Assembly (NCBI GenBank): GCA_900317125.1
Contig: ONFR01000005.1
Coordinates: 1 to 64,000 of the forward strand
DNA from: an uncultured Bacteroidales bacterium
GTDB lineage: Bacteria > Bacteroidota > Bacteroidia > Bacteroidales > P3
Direction: 5' to 3'
DNA length: 64,000 nt
Shown here piece by piece: positions 50,938-61,765 of this stretch. A model generated the notes under the pieces. It had not been told where the DNA came from. It did not search any database and worked only from the letters and a program-made list of their open reading frames with translations. Both the position numbers and the translations under genes were made by a program. The stretch's first letter is position 1. Each line of letters starts with the position of its first letter.

Positions 50938-50978
50938 CTCGCGTGTAAGACAGGTGTCGCCCCACATCAGTAAAGGCG
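50938..50978. repeat. 41-bp direct repeat, left copy
   Basis: It runs from CTCGCG to CATCAGTAAAGGCG and matches 52233-52273 at all but a few positions. The two copies flank the remnants of a type I restriction locus. Confidence 0.65.
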
Positions 50979-51264: not shown

Positions 51265-51606
51265 ATGAAATCATTCATCAGCGAAGACAGCATAGAACAG
51301 TCCCTTTGCACGCGCCTATCACTTCCTGAATTTGGGTGGAAGAGGATAGAGTGCGACCCCAGTGTCGCAGCACAAGACGATGTGAGCAAGACGGGACGAG
51401 CCAGTTCGTCGGAATGTATATTGCCGGAGGTGTTCCGAAACGCACTAAAGCGCCTTAATCCGTGGATGGGTGAGGAGATGATTGAGGGGATTGTGAGCGA
51501 CTACCGCAAGGACTATACTGGCACCGATATGGGGCACAAAGAATGTCAAGTTATTTACGTAAAAAACTTGACATTTTTTGTTTTTATACTCATCATCAGA
51601 TTATAA
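51265..51606 (+). pseudogene. N-terminal fragment of type I restriction subunit HsdR
   Basis: The first 90 codons match the start of HsdR (MKSFISEDSIEQSL, FGWKRIECDPSVAAQD, ILPEVFRNALKRLNP, DYRKDYTGTDM). After about 51533 the frame leaves the family and soon stops, whereas a full HsdR has about 1000 residues. The fragment lies 8 bp after the AlbA/RecG-like remnant, the usual gene order of a type I locus. The restriction gene is inactive. The frame was probably cut by a deletion or insertion. Confidence 0.75.
51542..51579 (+). terminator. Terminator at the HsdR breakpoint
   Basis: AATGTCAAGTT (51542-51552) pairs perfectly with AACTTGACATT (51565-51575), followed by a T run. It lies right where HsdR similarity ends, and may be the end of an inserted or deleted segment. 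Confidence 0.75.
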
Positions 51607-52232: not shown

Positions 52233-52273
52233 CTCGCGCGAAAGACTGGTGTCGTCCCACATCAGTAAAGGCG
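52233..52273. repeat. 41-bp direct repeat, right copy
   Basis: It matches 50938-50978; the last 18 bases, CCCACATCAGTAAAGGCG, are identical. Between 52274 and 52459 I see no gene. Confidence 0.65.
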
Positions 52274-52567: not shown

Positions 52568-52666
52568 ATGCAAGCAGGAAAACAACAAATATTAGAGTTA
52601 GACTTATCACTTTACCAAGATTTATTTAATACTGCGCAGATAGAAAGCTATGGAAATCACGGATGA
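52568..52666 (+). CDS. 32-aa open frame overlapping the DUF3883 gene start
   Basis: It encodes MQAGKQQILELDLSLYQDLF and ends QIESYGNHG, with the stop at 52664 inside the next gene, which begins at 52650 in another frame. The overlap would allow translational coupling. The acidic, helical sequence is protein-like, but it may be chance. Confidence 0.3.
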   Translation: MQAGKQQILELDLSLYQDLFNTAQIESYGNHG

Positions 52667-53411
52667 AAAGAAATCGGAAATAATGAACCTTATCGGGTAT
52701 GGGTTGGCTAAGTTCGATATTGCTTTTGTGCGTGAGTTTGGACAGCCGACAAAAGCTGCATTTGGTCGTTATGTGGTTGCTCTTGGTTTGGCTGACACAA
52801 CGAAAGCCGTTTCAAACAGGATGGATAGTTTCGACCCATACTTTGACAATGGTCGCAGAGGATGGTTTCAACGAAACCAACGTGAACATATTAAACTTTT
52901 TATCGACAGTCTTTTTGGTCAAGAAGATGCACATGGATTTGCCAATATTGTAAAACTATATATCAAAGAGCTGGATTCCAGTGTCATATTACCGACAGAA
53001 CGAATAACACCTACGCAGAAATCTCGATTCAAACAGCTTCAGGAGACAGGAAAAGAAGCCGAATTCTATTTCATGAGTAACTATCAAAACATACCGTTGT
53101 TCTCTTGTGGAATCTTAGAGGATGCTCGTTTATGGGGAGATGGGTATGATTTTCAAATACAATGTAGTAGCTCCTATTATTTAGCAGAAATAAAAGGGTT
53201 GCGAACGAATAAAGGATCAATTCGACTTACTCAAAACGAGTACTGTAAAGCGAAAGAGTATTTGGATGATTATATTTTGGTTGTTGTCAGTAACTTAGCC
53301 AATACTCCGAAATTGAGTATTTGGGAGAACCCTATTAAACATTTACCGTTGACTCCTCGAGAACAACAATCGACACAAGTTAATTATTATTCAGATAATA
53401 TAATGTGGTGA
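52650..53411 (+). CDS. DUF3883 nuclease-like protein
   Basis: The 253-aa cytoplasmic protein has a helical N-terminal half and a C-terminal DUF3883 (NO VEIN C-terminal-like) domain with the PD-(D/E)xK pattern: Glu136/Glu138 in GKEAEFYF, Asp167 in GDGYDFQI, and Glu180-x-Lys182 in LAEIKG. DUF3883 domains are common in defence genes and are predicted to cut DNA. The region is AT-rich compared with the core genome. It stands before an 89-aa protein and the Septu-like operon. Confidence 0.8.
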   Translation: MEITDEKKSEIMNLIGYGLAKFDIAFVREFGQPTKAAFGRYVVALGLADTTKAVSNRMDSFDPYFDNGRRGWFQRNQREHIKLFIDSLFGQEDAHGFANIVKLYIKELDSSVILPTERITPTQKSRFKQLQETGKEAEFYFMSNYQNIPLFSCGILEDARLWGDGYDFQIQCSSSYYLAEIKGLRTNKGSIRLTQNEYCKAKEYLDDYILVVVSNLANTPKLSIWENPIKHLPLTPREQQSTQVNYYSDNIMW

Positions 53412-53881: not shown

Positions 53882-55195
53882 ATGCGATTAATCTCTATCA
53901 CTTTAGATAATTACAGGAATTTTACTCATTACAATCTTCAGTTTGGTAAGAAGACCTCCATTCTCATAGGAAGAAATGGCATGGGTAAATCGAATTTATT
54001 GTCAGGCATGGTCCAGGCAATGAGTTTTATTTTCTCAAAACAAAGAGATACGCCACAATATGATTTCATCAGAAGCTCTGACCAAGGGGTGAAGCAATTT
54101 TCGATAACGGATTCTAGATATGCCGATGGGGATTATTGTTTCCCCTTATCATTGACAATGAAAGGATCTCTTGAAGATGGGGACGATAATAAAATACTAA
54201 ATTGGTCGTTTGAGCAGGAAAGTATGAAATCTGGACTTAAAGATTCAAGATTCCGAGAGGCATATCGAGAGTTCTGGGAATATTATAATTGGAAAAGAGA
54301 GAAGCCAGTATTGGCCTTTTTCTCAGACGGCTTTCCTCATAAGGATACCAGACTGACTAAAAAAATGAAGGATAAATTGGAATCCGGTAAACCTCTTCCT
54401 GCTAACACTGGATACTATCAGTGGGATAAAGAACAAAGTTGCGTTAATATATGGAAACAATATTATATGCAACAGTGGATAAATAACAAATTGAACCCTG
54501 ATAGCGAAAAACAAGCTTTTGTGGGTGCGGTAAACAAAAAAATGGTAGATTTTTCTATGCCATTGCCAGATGGCCCAGAGATAACAAAAGACCTAATGTT
54601 GGAAGGGCTTTTCGCGGAGAGTCGAGGTGAAAGAAACAACTTGGTGATTGAGTTTGTCGATGGCCGTAGGGTTCCATTTGACAATTTGCCAGCTGGTTAT
54701 AACAGAATTTTTTCAATTGTATTGGATTTGTCCTGCCGTAGTTACTTGTTGAATGGAAATTGCAATCCTGAAGGGGTAGTCTTTATCGATGAGATAGAGT
54801 TGCACCTCCATCCATCCATTGCTGCAGAAATACTTCAACGCTTGAGACGTTCGTTCCCAAAGATGCAATTTATTGTATCAACACATTCTCCACTCGTTAT
54901 CACTCATTTTAACCAATCATCCGATGATGATGACGACTATCGATTGTATCAATTGAATAGAGAAGACGATATTTATGTCAATCGTCGTATAATGGACCTA
55001 TATGGCTTAGACTATAATTCTGGGCTATTTGATTATATGGATATGCCCGATAATGTTGCTCTTGTGGCAAAATATAAGGAATCATACCGTTATTGGATAA
55101 GGCATGACCAAGATAGGGCAAAAAAAATAGCAGAGCTAATAAAGCGGTCTTTCCCTAAGAATACGGGTTTGCTAAATGAGTTGAACATTCACTAA
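53882..55195 (+). CDS. PtuA-like AAA ATPase (Septu-type)
   Basis: The 437-aa OLD/RecF-type ABC ATPase has Walker A GRNGMGKS (30-37), a signature-like LPAGYNRIFS (269-278), Walker B VVFIDEIELHLHP (299-311) and the H-loop STHSPLV (333-339). An insert of about 200 residues lies between Walker A and B. PtuA ATPases pair with an HNH nuclease, PtuB, in Septu antiphage systems; an HNH gene starts 2 bp downstream. It is the first gene of a tight five-gene operon. The call rests on architecture and context, not on a sequence search. Confidence 0.85.
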   Translation: MRLISITLDNYRNFTHYNLQFGKKTSILIGRNGMGKSNLLSGMVQAMSFIFSKQRDTPQYDFIRSSDQGVKQFSITDSRYADGDYCFPLSLTMKGSLEDGDDNKILNWSFEQESMKSGLKDSRFREAYREFWEYYNWKREKPVLAFFSDGFPHKDTRLTKKMKDKLESGKPLPANTGYYQWDKEQSCVNIWKQYYMQQWINNKLNPDSEKQAFVGAVNKKMVDFSMPLPDGPEITKDLMLEGLFAESRGERNNLVIEFVDGRRVPFDNLPAGYNRIFSIVLDLSCRSYLLNGNCNPEGVVFIDEIELHLHPSIAAEILQRLRRSFPKMQFIVSTHSPLVITHFNQSSDDDDDYRLYQLNREDDIYVNRRIMDLYGLDYNSGLFDYMDMPDNVALVAKYKESYRYWIRHDQDRAKKIAELIKRSFPKNTGLLNELNIH

Positions 55196-55197
55196 CT

Positions 55198-56064
55198 ATG
55201 AAATTCGTTGATAAAAATCATGAGGCAGAAGCAAATGCCATTATCACTCCATATCTCCATTATGCCTTGAATCAACCATGGTATGGTAATGATTTAAAAT
55301 TTGGAAGGGAATCCCTTTATGAGAGAATGCGAGGTTATCCACCAAATAGTCCAAATGAGGCGAAATGTCGGTCGGTATTGCTTGATAGGGTGCTGCTTCC
55401 GGAACAAAACAATAGGTGTTGCTATTGTATGCGACGCATTGATGACCATAGTGATGATGCTTCCATCGAACACATCATACCCAAAAGCGTTGACACTTAT
55501 AGGGGTATGATGCATTATTTTAATCAGCATCTGCCTAATTTAAATAGCCGAAAAATCTGCTTAACTGATACATTTGTTGCAAGTAGGGTTGCTATCGATG
55601 CAAATTCCCCTTTTCCTCACTTAGTGGCATATCATAACTTCGCTGCAGCATGTCGAAAATGCAATAGTTCACGTGGCCATGAGGAAATAGAAGTGTTATT
55701 TCTCCACCCAAATATCCATAATGAGATTGAATATAATAACCATACAGGTGAGGCATTTTGGGCTTTAGATCCAGTGTATAGCCCAACCGCAAGGCCCGAA
55801 GATATACCGACATTGGAGACATTGAAACTCAACAGGCCATTATATAAGGCTATTCGTGCAACTTGGTTCCAGGCAAAAAGGGAGGGAATTAATCCTACAA
55901 CCCTGACGACAGAACAAGATAAATCTGATTTAATCTATAAATCAGCGGGTGCTGCAATAGATAATGATCCTAAATTTGACGATAAGGATTTTAGAGGTTT
56001 TATGGATTTGACAAAAGCAGCAAATTGGAGTATCTTCTTAAAGTTTGACTATTTCGGAAGATGA
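55198..56064 (+). CDS. PtuB-like HNH endonuclease
   Basis: The 288-aa protein has an HNH nuclease domain with zinc-binding Cys74/Cys77 (RCCYCMRR), the catalytic His92 in SIEHIIPKS, and a second Cys pair with Asn156 (NFAAACRKCNSSRG). The neighbouring ATPase makes it PtuB-like: in Septu systems the ATPase regulates a nuclease that damages phage or host DNA. Here the protein has a longer C-terminal half than a minimal HNH. It starts 2 bp after the ATPase gene. Confidence 0.85.
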   Translation: MKFVDKNHEAEANAIITPYLHYALNQPWYGNDLKFGRESLYERMRGYPPNSPNEAKCRSVLLDRVLLPEQNNRCCYCMRRIDDHSDDASIEHIIPKSVDTYRGMMHYFNQHLPNLNSRKICLTDTFVASRVAIDANSPFPHLVAYHNFAAACRKCNSSRGHEEIEVLFLHPNIHNEIEYNNHTGEAFWALDPVYSPTARPEDIPTLETLKLNRPLYKAIRATWFQAKREGINPTTLTTEQDKSDLIYKSAGAAIDNDPKFDDKDFRGFMDLTKAANWSIFLKFDYFGR

Positions 56065-56093
56065 TTGGGGATTTAGAAAAAAAAGTATGTTAA

Positions 56094-57251
56094 ATGTCTG
56101 ACAATAAAGATTTCTTCAAGAAACAAACTGACTCATCGAGAGTCAAGGCAGCTATTATCTCCGAATATTTCCCACAATATTGTAGGATTATATCCCGTCG
56201 GCATTGCCCGGAGCATTTTGGCTATTTCGATATGTTTGCAGGACCGGGAATGTACGAAGATGGCAGTTTGTCAACACCATTACTTGTAGCTAGGAGTTGT
56301 TACGAAGACCCGTTTCTGCGTGATCGTGTTTGGATGGTGTTCAATGATATGGCATACGGTGACAAATTAAGAGAGAACTTTGAAAAATATTACCAGAGTG
56401 GAACATTCCCTAATGAGCCTTACTTTGCAAGTCGTACATTTGGCGAGTGGCCAAAGTTAGACAGTTTCCTAACTCGAAATACAATGCAAGGATTCTACAA
56501 TGAATGTCCGACAGTATTGTTTATTGACCCTTGGGGCTATAAACATATCAACACACGTGTATTGACTCAATTTCTGACTAGGTGGGGCAATGAAGTGTTT
56601 ATTTTTATTAACACTAAACGCTTAAACGCAGCATTTGAAAACGACAAGTTTCAAGAGGATTTAAGAATTGTCTTTCCGTTGACCTATAACGAGGTAAAAG
56701 AAAATAAAAAGCTGAAAGGCTCGGTAGAAGAACGTCATAACTACATAATCAACCAACTTGCTAACGAGTTTCGCAGAATATTGAAAGGAATGGTATTTTA
56801 CACAGCATTCGAATTTCGCGAAGAAGACCAAAAAACACCAAGTCATTACCTGCTACATATTACCAAAGGAGCCAGAGGGTTCGACCTTGTGAAGCAGGTA
56901 TATAGCAGATATGCTAACGTTGAAAGGGAGTTGGGAAGTATGGGTGATGTTGATACTTATACATTCGACCCCAAAACCTTTAATACAGAATCATTGTTTG
57001 ATGAAGACTTCAAGCAAGACAATATAGATAAGTTGAAGCGGGAGTTGTGTAGTAAGTATTCTGGTAAGACGATTAACACAGAATCGCTTTTTAATGAAGA
57101 TCATCGCAATCGGCTACATTCTCGCACACATTATCTTGTGGCATTTCGCCAATTATGTGATGAGAAGAAAATAGAAGCAAAATTTACCGATGATAAGAAA
57201 CACAAGGCATCGGTACTGATTTCTCCAATGTGCCTTATAACCTTTAAGTAA
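56094..57251 (+). CDS. Three-Cys-motif partner protein TcmP
   Basis: The 385-aa protein matches the TcmP family: DSSRVKAAIISEYFPQY at the N-terminus, then YFDMFAGPGMYEDG, which resembles a methyltransferase glycine motif, VLFIDPWGY, and FINTKRLNAAF. TcmP genes lie beside three-Cys-motif proteins; such a gene starts 6 bp downstream here. The biochemical role is unknown; the DxFAGPG and DPWG motifs hint at a Rossmann-type methyltransferase-like or nucleotide-binding fold. It starts 29 bp after the HNH gene. Confidence 0.85.
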   Translation: MSDNKDFFKKQTDSSRVKAAIISEYFPQYCRIISRRHCPEHFGYFDMFAGPGMYEDGSLSTPLLVARSCYEDPFLRDRVWMVFNDMAYGDKLRENFEKYYQSGTFPNEPYFASRTFGEWPKLDSFLTRNTMQGFYNECPTVLFIDPWGYKHINTRVLTQFLTRWGNEVFIFINTKRLNAAFENDKFQEDLRIVFPLTYNEVKENKKLKGSVEERHNYIINQLANEFRRILKGMVFYTAFEFREEDQKTPSHYLLHITKGARGFDLVKQVYSRYANVERELGSMGDVDTYTFDPKTFNTESLFDEDFKQDNIDKLKRELCSKYSGKTINTESLFNEDHRNRLHSRTHYLVAFRQLCDEKKIEAKFTDDKKHKASVLISPMCLITFK

Positions 57252-57257
57252 CAGTAT

Positions 57258-57995
57258 ATGGCAGATACGAAAATAGAATGGACTGATAAGTCATGGAATC
57301 CTGTTACGGGATGTACGAAAATATCAGAGGGCTGCCAACACTGCTATGCAGAGGTGATGGCAAGAAGGCTTAAGGGAATGGGTCAAGAGAAATACAGAAA
57401 TGCTTTCCAATTGACACTACACCCTGAAGATTTAGATGAACCAAGGAAATGGCATAAACAACATAATGTCTTTGTCTGTTCAATGGGCGATTTGTTTCAT
57501 GATGAAGTGCCTTTTGAATTCATTGATAGAGTGATGAAAACCATACGTGAGACACCGCAACACCGATACCAATTATTAACAAAAAGAGCGGAGCGGATGG
57601 AAGAGTATTTTGCGACTCACAGAGTACCTGAAAATGTATGGTTGGGTGTAACTGTTGAGGTACAGCGTACACGTTTTCGAATTGATCTCCTGCGCAAAAT
57701 ACCAGCATCTGTGCACTTTCTTTCATGTGAACCACTCTTAGAAGATTTGGGTGAGATGGATCTGGAGGGCATTGATTGGATTATCGTTGGAGGAGAAAGT
57801 GGACTAAAGGCACGACCCATGAGAGAGGAGTGGGCTTTGAATGTGAAAAGACAAGCTGCAGACAAGGATATTGCTTTCTTCTTTAAGCAATGGGGGACGT
57901 GGAGCTGTGAGGGTGTAAAACGCAACAAACACGTTAACGGTAAACTCTTGGAAGGAAAAATTGTTCAGCAGATGCCTAAAGAGAGGAAAATATAG
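57258..57995 (+). CDS. Three-Cys-motif protein, DUF5131/phage Gp37-Gp68 family
   Basis: The 245-aa protein has the motif NPVTGCTKISEGCQHCYAE with Cys19, Cys26 and Cys29 (C-x6-C-x2-C), and the conserved FVCSMGDLFHDEVP, YQLLTKRAERM and IIVGGESG blocks of the phage Gp37/Gp68 (DUF5131) family. Three Cys residues could hold an Fe-S cluster, as in radical SAM enzymes, which the barrel-like sequence resembles. TcmP, encoded just upstream, is its known family partner. The 548-aa gene follows after 2 bp. Confidence 0.88.
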   Translation: MADTKIEWTDKSWNPVTGCTKISEGCQHCYAEVMARRLKGMGQEKYRNAFQLTLHPEDLDEPRKWHKQHNVFVCSMGDLFHDEVPFEFIDRVMKTIRETPQHRYQLLTKRAERMEEYFATHRVPENVWLGVTVEVQRTRFRIDLLRKIPASVHFLSCEPLLEDLGEMDLEGIDWIIVGGESGLKARPMREEWALNVKRQAADKDIAFFFKQWGTWSCEGVKRNKHVNGKLLEGKIVQQMPKERKI

Positions 57996-57997
57996 CT

Positions 57998-59644
57998 ATG
58001 ACACAGTATTTATATGACGATGATACATTCGGTGCTCAAACCATCTCAATTTTGGATAGGTTGCATAGCTATTTTAGTGATGTTCACATGTGGAGTAGTC
58101 AGGGGGGAGAAGAGCCTATGCCTCAATTCAAGTTCAGGGCTCTATTGCTGATTGCAGAAATCTATGAGCATGTTCGTCTGTATGTCAACAATCATGAAGA
58201 AAGTCTATCTAACTATTTTGGAAAGTGGACGTTGAGAAAATGTTTGGAGCAAGTGGTTGCCATAGAGGGTTTGCAGAAACAATTGAATGAAATGCATCCG
58301 GATTTCGAATTTTGCGATGCCCAGTATGAATTACGAGAGTGTATTATGGGAGTTAATCATCTTCCCTTAGGAGGAGATGATATTGCCAAACTTTATGAAA
58401 AGGGAATTGATGGTTTTCGCGAAGAATGTGACATCAACAATCATCCTCCTATAGCTAGTTCTCAGTTATGGAATGCCGTTTCCAGCAATGACCGCAATTA
58501 TAAATTCGGTCGATTGTTTAGGAAAGCCAAGGAGTCGTTTGTGGAGTTTGACAAGGAGGGCAAGTCGCCAGACCCGGATGACCGTGCTTATAACCAAGCA
58601 AGGGATGAAAACCAATTAAGCAACCAAATTGCATATAAAGCGAAAAAAATCGATTATTCCGCAAACTATGCTAGTCAAGATTTTTTTGATTGTTTGCAAT
58701 ATATTCTTCACATACAGTTAGAAGCTGAGAATGCAAGTGCAGATATAATTTGTCGCGAACTGGGAAAGGCTCTAGAGACATTACGCAATGTGTATATGGC
58801 TGAAGCCGAAGACATCTATTATATTCGAACTGGTGACTTTGCAAGTTTGGAGATGTTTTATGATGAGAAATCCATTAACCACTTGTACACAGAAATTCCT
58901 TTCAGAAAATATTATGAGGCAAAAAATGATTATATTGAATATTTTTCTGAAGAAATTGAAGCAGAGCTTGCAAAATGGCGCATGGATAAAGGTTATGTCG
59001 AGCGTAAGCTCAGTTGCGAAGAATACGAGGAATTTTTGTGTGAACATATAACTGATGTAGAAAATAATATGAAGGGTTATGATGAACTGTGGGAACTCCG
59101 GACACATAGTGGTGGATTGGATACTAAGGTGACTCCCGAGAACTTTGCAAGAATGTTCTATCGGAGGGAAGGGGTTGATAGTTATTTCATCGAATTGGAA
59201 TGGGAACTGGAAGAACTGATAAGGATAAGAGAAAAGAACAAAGAGAAAACACTGTCTGTCATTCAAGAACAGGCGACCACTCCCGAACAAAAGGCCGTAG
59301 ATGATTTTATCGAGAAAATCCTTATGCTCGTTAATATGGCATATGATGAATGGAACGACAGGTATTTAGTGCCGGCTGTTCATAAGCCGGAAGTTCACAT
59401 TATTATTAAGAAAGATGAATTGGTTCAATATATACAAGATTTGAGGAAGAGTAGATTCGAAGTTTTGTCGGAAATGTGCTACCCCAAAACATCAAAGTCA
59501 AAACAAGTGTTCTGTCAGTATGTGGTAAGCCTCCAAGAAAAAGGCTATTTCGGTGAACTATCTAATAAATTGTTAGCACAAATAATAGCACCAATTGTCG
59601 GACTTGCTATAGGTACTGTTACAAACTACCTCAGCCGTTCATAG
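57998..59644 (+). CDS. 548-aa unknown protein with C-terminal hydrophobic segment
   Basis: The last gene of the defence operon encodes an acidic, helix-rich protein of no family I recognise. Its only clear feature is the C-terminus: LLAQIIAPIVGLAIGTVTNY (about 525-544) is a probable membrane helix or membrane-active segment, so it could be tail-anchored or a pore former. A middle stretch (YEEFLCEHITDVENNMKGYD) looks coiled. As membrane proteins are frequent effectors in antiphage systems, an effector role is possible, but this is inference. Confidence 0.75.
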   Translation: MTQYLYDDDTFGAQTISILDRLHSYFSDVHMWSSQGGEEPMPQFKFRALLLIAEIYEHVRLYVNNHEESLSNYFGKWTLRKCLEQVVAIEGLQKQLNEMHPDFEFCDAQYELRECIMGVNHLPLGGDDIAKLYEKGIDGFREECDINNHPPIASSQLWNAVSSNDRNYKFGRLFRKAKESFVEFDKEGKSPDPDDRAYNQARDENQLSNQIAYKAKKIDYSANYASQDFFDCLQYILHIQLEAENASADIICRELGKALETLRNVYMAEAEDIYYIRTGDFASLEMFYDEKSINHLYTEIPFRKYYEAKNDYIEYFSEEIEAELAKWRMDKGYVERKLSCEEYEEFLCEHITDVENNMKGYDELWELRTHSGGLDTKVTPENFARMFYRREGVDSYFIELEWELEELIRIREKNKEKTLSVIQEQATTPEQKAVDDFIEKILMLVNMAYDEWNDRYLVPAVHKPEVHIIIKKDELVQYIQDLRKSRFEVLSEMCYPKTSKSKQVFCQYVVSLQEKGYFGELSNKLLAQIIAPIVGLAIGTVTNYLSRS

Positions 59645-59668: not shown

Positions 59669-59703
59669 CGCCTATTTCGACTATTGAAGTAGGCGTTTTT
59701 TTT
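59669..59703 (+). terminator. Terminator of the defence operon
   Basis: CGCCTATTTC (59669-59678) pairs with GAAGTAGGCG (59686-59695), with one wobble pair, followed by eight T residues, 25 bp after the last stop codon. Confidence 0.9.
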
Positions 59704-59873
59704 GTTTGGATATGAATCATAGGAATTAAATTATATGATTCACTATGTTATTTATTAATTGTTTGAATTTGTGTGTTGTATGCCTAATGAATTAATTTGA
59801 ATAATTTTTGGTCAAATGTAATATTACTTTGTATTTTGCAATTGCAAACCCATAATAACGGGTCATTAATAAA

Positions 59874-61080: not shown

Positions 61081-61359
61081 ATGAACACAAAAATTGTAAA
61101 AATCATTGCACAGTCCGAAACGACTTATGTGCAGTCGAGAAAGAATGAGAACGGCCAGGTGGCTAAGTGTTACATCCGTCTGCGGGAACTGGGCGGGGAA
61201 CATGAGGATGAGTATCTGTGCGCGTTGTATGGCGGACTTGCTGAACGTAGGTTCGAGCCGGGCAAACTGGTGGCGGCAAGTCTCCGATTCTCTACCCACG
61301 AGACTAACGGTACCAGGTATCAGGACATCGTGGCTTATGAAGTCGTGCCTGTGAACTAA
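61081..61359 (+). CDS. 92-aa hypothetical protein, OB-fold-like
   Basis: It starts 18 bp after the antirepressor gene and reads MNTKIVKIIAQSETTYVQSR, then VAKCYIRLRELGG and a conserved-looking RYQDIVAYEVVPVN end. The strand spacing resembles small single-strand-binding or DUF3127-type OB folds, but the family is not established. It is followed by the 62-bp tandem repeat. Confidence 0.6.
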   Translation: MNTKIVKIIAQSETTYVQSRKNENGQVAKCYIRLRELGGEHEDEYLCALYGGLAERRFEPGKLVAASLRFSTHETNGTRYQDIVAYEVVPVN

Positions 61360-61364
61360 TTCGT

Positions 61365-61640
61365 CCACGTATCACGCGTATCGCACGGATTATCTTTCAT
61401 CCATGTATCACATGAATTATATATATCCACGTATCACGCGTATCGCACGGATTATCTTTCATCCATGTATCACATGAATTATATATATCCACGTATCACG
61501 CGAATCACACGGATTATCTTTCATCCATGTATCACATGAATTATATATATCCACGTATCACGCGTATCGCACGGATTATCTTTCATCCATGTATCACATG
61601 AATATATATCCACGTATTACGCGAATCACACGGATAATTC
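61365..61640. repeat. 62-bp tandem repeat, about 4.5 units
   Basis: Units start CCACGTATCACGCG at 61365, 61427, 61489, 61551 and 61610 (periods 62, 62, 62 and 59). Each unit has two related halves, CCACGTATCACGCGTATC and CCATGTATCACATGAAT. There are no unique spacers. The array lies in the 406-bp gap 61360-61765; the last 125 bp show no gene. A related sequence is at 490-515. Confidence 0.85.
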
Positions 61641-61765
61641 ATTATGCAGGCATAATAACAAGCGTTAGAGAAATTAAATAGTTTATTCACTTGAGTTGAG
61701 GTGAGGAGGATGTTCTCGAGTAAATGGCCAAAGAATCTAAACTTCTTCTCGCAAAACTCGTAATT

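Follow-up and report, generated by a model that had tools for sequence, protein, structure and literature searches.

Septu and an Independent Three-Gene Cassette Related to PDC-M30 Probably Share One Transcript in an Uncultured Bacteroidales Bacterium

Introduction

Does a run of five closely spaced genes in an uncultured Bacteroidales bacterium encode one antiphage system or two? The window analyzed here, the whole stretch of 64,000 nucleotides from contig ONFR01000005.1 (assembly GCA_900317125.1), carries on its + strand a ptuA-like gene (53882..55195, 437 aa) for an ABC-type ATPase of Septu, a ptuB-like gene (55198..56064, 288 aa) for an HNH nuclease, tcmP (56094..57251, 385 aa), a DUF5131 gene (57258..57995, 245 aa), and a fifth gene of an unnamed family, here called gene 5 (57998..59644, 548 aa). 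A preliminary description of this DNA had reported five genes on the same strand with gaps of 2, 29, 6, and 2 bp, as is borne out by the five + strand open reading frames (ORFs), and had preferred to regard them as a single composite system, with two systems on one transcript as its alternative. From the evidence presented below, the five genes are likely to be two cassettes sharing one transcript on a probable mobile element, namely Septu and an independent trio, and the trio is best read as a three-gene variant of the uncharacterized candidate PDC-M30, stacked behind Septu. Newly described are the third gene of this cassette and its edge, together with evidence for the junction with Septu being one of several.

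Each Half of the Locus Occurs Without the Other

The gene families proposed in the preliminary description were upheld by scans of Pfam, PADLOC, and NCBIfam, which covered ten ORFs between 51265 and 61062. Gene 1 matches PADLOC PtuA1 (E 6.3e-46) over residues 1–413 as well as AAA_15 (3.9e-21), can be read as having Walker A GRNGMGKS and Walker B VFIDE, and aligns with solved retron and Septu PtuA chains in the PDB at 2e-20 to 9e-16. Gene 2 matches PADLOC PtuB1 (1e-13), with the best stretch at residues 62–109 only, and retains an intact CCYC..EH..CxxCN pattern, the HNH and zinc residues being invariant in 15 aligned sequences (alignment A2) from a family for which 43 homologues were found. The two features by which Septu is recognized, a PtuA-type ABC ATPase and a PtuB-type HNH nuclease directly downstream (here after 2 bp), are both present.

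A PtuA-like match (E ≤ 1e-10) was found in 22 of 190 genomes of the family, the window's own counted, and the closest relatives of the window protein, at 55–58% identity, belong to three genomes of the same genus. A PtuB-like gene (41–49%) comes next in 3/3 of these loci, and neither TcmP, DUF5131, nor gene 5 was found within the 9.5–18 kb fetched around them, one of the three (L124) reaching a contig end ∼0.5 kb upstream of PtuA. One genome (G075) possesses both cassettes on different contigs. In the wider order, PtuB occurs in 6 of 393 genomes including the window's, the remaining five matches being distant, and no PtuB match was obtained in the plasmids or viral contigs searched. Locus L128 (1399-11940) has a PtuA-like ATPase (28%) and a 225-aa HNH-nuclease-looking protein within what can be taken, by eye, for a type I restriction-modification (R-M) operon.

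The converse arrangement is seen in L002 and L003, which carry TcmP, DUF5131, and gene 5 in the order of the window and are without PtuA-PtuB (2/2). In both loci an R-M system lies upstream of the trio: in L002 it comprises a HindVP endonuclease and a C5 methyltransferase, together with Mrr, and in L003 a DpnII endonuclease flanked by two methylase-like ORFs (ORFs named by eye). Identity to the window proteins is high for TcmP and DUF5131 (81/83% in L002 and 71/78% in L003) and only 46% (L002) and 34% (L003) for gene 5, which in L003 is shortened to a 348-aa frame. Nucleotide homology to the window starts at 56093 in L002 and at 56091 in L003, at most three bases from the TcmP start at 56094, and we read this coincidence with the start codon as the left edge of a three-gene cassette (56091..56094, + strand) of which tcmP is the first gene. 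Farther along, apart from a single 75-bp piece, L002 is homologous at the DNA level again only from within the second half of gene 5, and this homology continues through the terminator and the next 112-aa gene. A small gene of 112–113 aa and a Bro-N gene (40% identity) follow the trio in both the window and L002, which suggests that the trio occupies a like place of an element with varying upstream neighbors.

What is observed directly is the identity of the genes, a cassette edge coinciding with the first codon of TcmP, and loci in which either half stands without its counterpart; the last of these led to rejection of the composite as the main explanation, in favor of the alternative that the preliminary description had held in reserve. 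The gene-neighborhood comparison that had been proposed there as a check came out against a single system, on a small sample (3/3 PtuA-PtuB loci and 2/2 trio loci). The short gaps and a single terminator nonetheless point to one likely transcript. This intrinsic terminator (59669..59703, + strand), a stem followed by a T-run at the 3′ end of the operon, was correctly called strong in the earlier account: it scores z −3.5 against shuffles and is kept after gene 5 in L002, where it departs from the window version at one pair that changes with compensation (C-G to U-A) and at another that goes from G-U to G-C.

Predicted Functions of the Encoded Proteins

TcmP is identified by NCBIfam TIGR04474 (2.2e-30) and PADLOC PDC-M30A (4.2e-21), and its structural model shows a class I S-adenosylmethionine (SAM) methyltransferase fold with SAM motif I, nearest to RlmJ, and a C-terminal winged helix-turn-helix (HTH), so that TcmP is predicted to be a SAM-dependent methyltransferase most like this rRNA adenine methyltransferase. 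Among genomes of the order, 15/393 have a TcmP match, the window's own counted; three distant matches occur in the plasmids searched and none in the phage records searched. Profile searches of the PDB with the TcmP and DUF5131 alignments gave nothing below E 0.3. TcmP is interrupted in both L005 and L006, the latter with a Mutator-family transposase between the TcmP pieces.

Gene 4 belongs to DUF5131 (PF07505, 4e-106) and matches PADLOC PDC-M30B (1e-114) and, about equally, PDC-M41B (8.5e-114), while TIGR04471 (3.9e-30) reaches 105 bits, below its curated cut-off of 355. Its cysteines (Cys19, Cys26, and Cys29) form a CX6CX2C motif whose spacing is the same in the 18 DUF5131 proteins of alignment A4. 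For L079 and L083, the partner of TcmP matches Radical_SAM (PF04055) above the cut-off and PF07505 below it, that of L079 also matching SPL below the cut-off, and the cysteines of the L079 and L081 proteins align with those of DUF5131, which is accordingly predicted from sequence to be a radical-SAM-like partner of TcmP. DUF5131 matches are present in 70/190 family genomes, the window's own counted. A second DUF5131-like protein (∼29–38% identity) occurs in ∼48/190 family genomes (e.g., G000:C9:48726-49352), and the single locus of this kind that was read (L158) has no TcmP beside it.

Gene 5, for which 119 homologues were found, has no family in Pfam, PADLOC, or NCBIfam, and its model has no match among solved structures at Foldseek E ≤ 0.001. 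The modeled protein is all-helical, and its architecture consists of a variable stretch (residues ∼100–250), a conserved core, and an HTH-like C-terminus. No gene 5 was found in viral contigs, a single-sequence scan found none in species-genome contigs, an alignment-based pattern scan of 84,980 species genomes yielded two further loci (L002 and L003), and the only copy in the 190 family genomes is that of the window. The membrane tail formerly attributed to this protein was considered and rejected. The usual Kyte-Doolittle membrane threshold is 1.6, and the 19-residue maximum of 1.71 in the window tail, just above it, would by itself suggest a membrane segment; however, this value is shared only with the 95%-identical P0001, whereas the same tail in the remaining 25 members of alignment A1 has maxima of 0.65–1.36 and is charged (K, E or D), as in LLAEVLAPIAKISVGTARNYLSQS. 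In the model, the tail forms three short helices, with lengths of 12 and 9 residues, in an HTH-like shape.

How the two cassettes might act can be outlined from these assignments. One report describes cleavage of tRNA-Tyr in the variable loop by Septu EcB88 upon infection (PMC13096335), and another describes depletion of tRNA-Tyr by the PtuAB pair of retron Eco7 and mentions that Septu of another strain was reported as cutting nicked DNA (PMC11555353). By transfer from such characterized pairs of Septu and retron I-A, PtuA would restrain PtuB up to the time of infection and then allow it to cut tRNA or DNA. Nucleic-acid modification by TcmP and DUF5131 would be compatible with an RlmJ-like fold and a radical-SAM-like partner, and together the two proteins may install or remove an RNA base modification, most likely in tRNA or rRNA, that stops phage growth; RNA is favored over DNA because the best fold matches of the TcmP model are rRNA and tRNA enzymes. 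Gene 5 could be a sensor or adaptor that binds DNA or RNA, with specificity determined by its variable stretch, and the two cassettes would then give layered rather than joint protection.

Surroundings of TcmP-DUF5131 Pairs Across Genomes

PADLOC lists TcmP-DUF5131 as the defense candidate PDC-M30, and the varied company that this pair keeps elsewhere marks it as modular and bears on how the window should be understood. Forty-four loci were read, comprising L002, L003, 13 loci of the order (leaving out the window, a G474 hit that is a weak match in another 712-aa frame [L075], and the second piece of a G369 locus), and 29 places in the family with a DUF5131 match at E ≤ 2.5e-63, the window excepted. 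TcmP and a radical-SAM-like partner are adjacent on the same strand, at −22 to +6 bp, in 35/44 loci (L002, L003, 13/13 of the order, and 20/29 of the family), which were picked via TcmP, DUF5131, or gene 5 and include near relatives (L079 and L081, of one genus) and contig ends (L170, L171, and L182). No pair is present in the other nine (L160, L164, L176, L179, L180, L181, L185, L186, and L187).

An alternative that we regard as unlikely, and that overlaps in part with the two-cassette explanation, is that TcmP-DUF5131, with or without gene 5, works with any adjacent nuclease system in self-marking, damage repair, or as a fail-safe, in the manner of PrrC inside type I R-M operons. It would account for the 14/35 pairs (L002, L003, L086, L088, L089, L159, L162, L163, L165, L166, L168, L169, L183 with a type IIG fragment, and L184) that have an R-M gene, confirmed by a hidden Markov model (HMM), on the same strand and at most three genes away, these neighbors being genes of type I, II, and IIG together with N6 methylases not assigned to a type, and for a ResIII helicase and methylase somewhat farther from the pair in L087. 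Other neighbors of the pair include an AbiLi-like ATPase in L178 (5648-9011), where it is followed by a DUF3226 protein, TcmP, and DUF5131 in a row, an AAA_5 protein in L177, and the PtuA-like ATPase of L173 discussed below, and the pair on viral contig L004 is preceded by a ResIII helicase and an N6_N4 methylase. Across the 20 family genomes with one pair, which contain 102 N6_Mtase hits in ∼48.4 Mb, the pair lies within 5 kb of such a hit in 8/20 (hand count from coordinates) against ∼0.5 expected, but the corresponding binomial probability of 1.6e-8 assumes independence and even density and is not to be taken at face value, the enrichment being inflated by relatedness and by clustering of defense genes, with several of the 102 hits being pieces of one gene. 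Since defense genes cluster anyway, nearness need not mean cooperation, and enrichment of R-M genes around pairs is not proof of it; moreover, 17/35 pairs have no R-M or nuclease gene confirmed nearby among the part of the neighbors scanned, the pair of L078 has integrases ∼2 kb away, and a phage integrase directly adjoins the pair in viral loci L008 and L009. Proteins of 243–252 aa, alike by eye, follow DUF5131 in L159 (8715-9452), L165 (7179-7910), L168 (8704-9444), and L172 (2248-3006) and precede HsdM in the first three; that of L159 has no Pfam family.

A bolder reading, which we also regard as unlikely, is that TcmP and DUF5131, with gene 5 swappable for specificity, are a portable second line mounted on many nuclease defenses (type I, II, IIG, and III restriction and Septu-like and AbiL-like ATPases), altering a base in RNA or DNA once the nuclease has been triggered or has failed. 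If this were true, one chemical module would serve many unrelated immune systems.

It is improbable that the trio is not a defense at all and instead is cargo of the mobile element, such as an RNA-modification set serving the element or a phage. In viral contigs, DUF5131 is commonly without TcmP, which lies within two genes of it (by profile) in 15/56 loci and is missing in 41/56, some of them cut by contig ends, and the 112–113-aa gene and Bro-N gene shared behind the trio by the window and L002 would suit such cargo as well. The form that contains TcmP, on the other hand, recurs near R-M and ATPase-nuclease genes and once within some kilobases of BREX (PglZ and BrxL in L083), in addition to its standing as a PADLOC defense candidate, although a C5 methylase also lies near the TcmP-less DUF5131 genes of L160 and L164.

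The single composite system, in which the five proteins act together and the trio regulates PtuA-PtuB or produces the signal for it, fits the short gaps, the one terminator, the one likely transcript, and the PtuA-like ATPase before the pair in L173, but we hold it to be highly improbable given that the edge of the cassette coincides with the start of TcmP and that each half stands alone in the close relatives read, by which an obligate dependence is already contradicted.

Several observations nevertheless count against the two-cassette explanation or its parts. Locus L173 (2448-6935) has in a row a PtuA-like ATPase (PADLOC 1.7e-34), TcmP, DUF5131, and a GIY-YIG protein (PDC-S14, 1.2e-82), with the ATPase 89 bp upstream of the pair, and because this is a second, different joining, an ATPase-nuclease joined to TcmP-DUF5131 is not unique to the window; a GIY-YIG protein of the same kind is found in L167. 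There is scarcely space for a terminator or promoter in the 29 bp between PtuB and TcmP (no scan for them was made), so the five genes may be co-expressed and co-selected. Only three gene-5 loci are readable, one of which (L003) has the shortened gene. L160 and L164 have DUF5131 without TcmP, near contig ends and near the C5 methylase, which means that the contrast between TcmP-containing and TcmP-less loci is not sharp. At the level of the proteins, the PtuA and PtuB equivalogs of NCBIfam (retron Ec78) fall far short of their cut-offs, at 130 of 500 and 20.4 of 150 bits, the DUF5131 cysteines depart from the canonical radical SAM spacing CX3CX2C, for which reason the protein is called radical-SAM-like, and the substrate of TcmP is a guess from the modeled fold.

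On balance, two cassettes on one transcript remain the likely explanation, and the case illustrates how system calling based on adjacency can turn neighboring cassettes into one false composite. The trio, in turn, is compact, has a clear edge, and combines an RlmJ-like methyltransferase with a radical-SAM-like partner and a third protein that is new, which makes it a tractable object for finding function.

Setting of the Locus

The AT-rich character of the locus in a GC-rich genome, as described earlier, was reproduced: the G+C content across the locus is ∼0.35–0.42 (1-kb windows), adjoining values are intermediate, and ∼0.60 is reached farther out, at 45–48 kb and 62–64 kb. The adjoining restriction remnants of that account come down to one 113-aa ORF at 51265 with a weak match to HSDR_N (E 0.007), under the curated cut-off. 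A 41-nt direct repeat (90%) at 50938-50978 and 52233-52273 brackets the 1.3 kb containing this ORF and is perhaps the scar of a lost element. Just 5′ of the locus, a 253-aa protein (52650-53411) has a NO VEIN C-terminal domain (PF13020, 2e-12) with a weak likeness to the end of TmtA. On the other side, a short palindrome, ACCC-N8-GGGT (59848-59863), stands ahead of the 113-aa gene that follows the trio and is kept in L002, and it could serve an HTH protein as operator; behind the Bro-N neighborhood lies a tandem array (61302-61665) with a period of 62 bp and ∼5 copies, the central ones 98% alike.

Comparison With Known Systems

The members of the locus can be set beside five known enzymes or systems. 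Radical SAM enzymes, of which the spore photoproduct lyase type is nearest, resemble DUF5131 through the L079 and L083 partners that match Radical_SAM and through the aligned cysteines, and differ from it in having CX3CX2C rather than CX6CX2C. RlmJ, the 23S rRNA A2030 N6-methyltransferase, has the acceptor motif DPPY, whereas TcmP, at 12% identity, has DPWGY and an extra winged HTH. The pair of TcmP and DUF5131 agrees with PDC-M30 in the adjacency of M30A and M30B, 6 bp apart, by which that candidate is defined, whereas the window has gene 5, without any PADLOC model, directly behind. Among the literature matches listed, most of which concern other meanings of the letters, there was no paper on TcmP-DUF5131 chemistry; one study reports a predicted PDC-M30 for 32 Pseudomonas strains, of which 68.8% were phage-resistant (PMC10855318), and in a table of another a TcmP gene and the Hna phage-defense helicase occupy consecutive rows (PMC12445080). 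Retrons of type I-A (Ec78/Eco7 PtuAB) supply the best solved relatives of the window ATPase in their PtuA chains, but no reverse-transcriptase family was found among the ten ORFs scanned. Septu itself shares with the window a PtuA-type ATPase followed after 2 bp by a PtuB-type HNH nuclease, with the key residues intact, and differs in that the window PtuB is longer, at 288 aa compared with the 218 positions of the NCBIfam PtuB profile.

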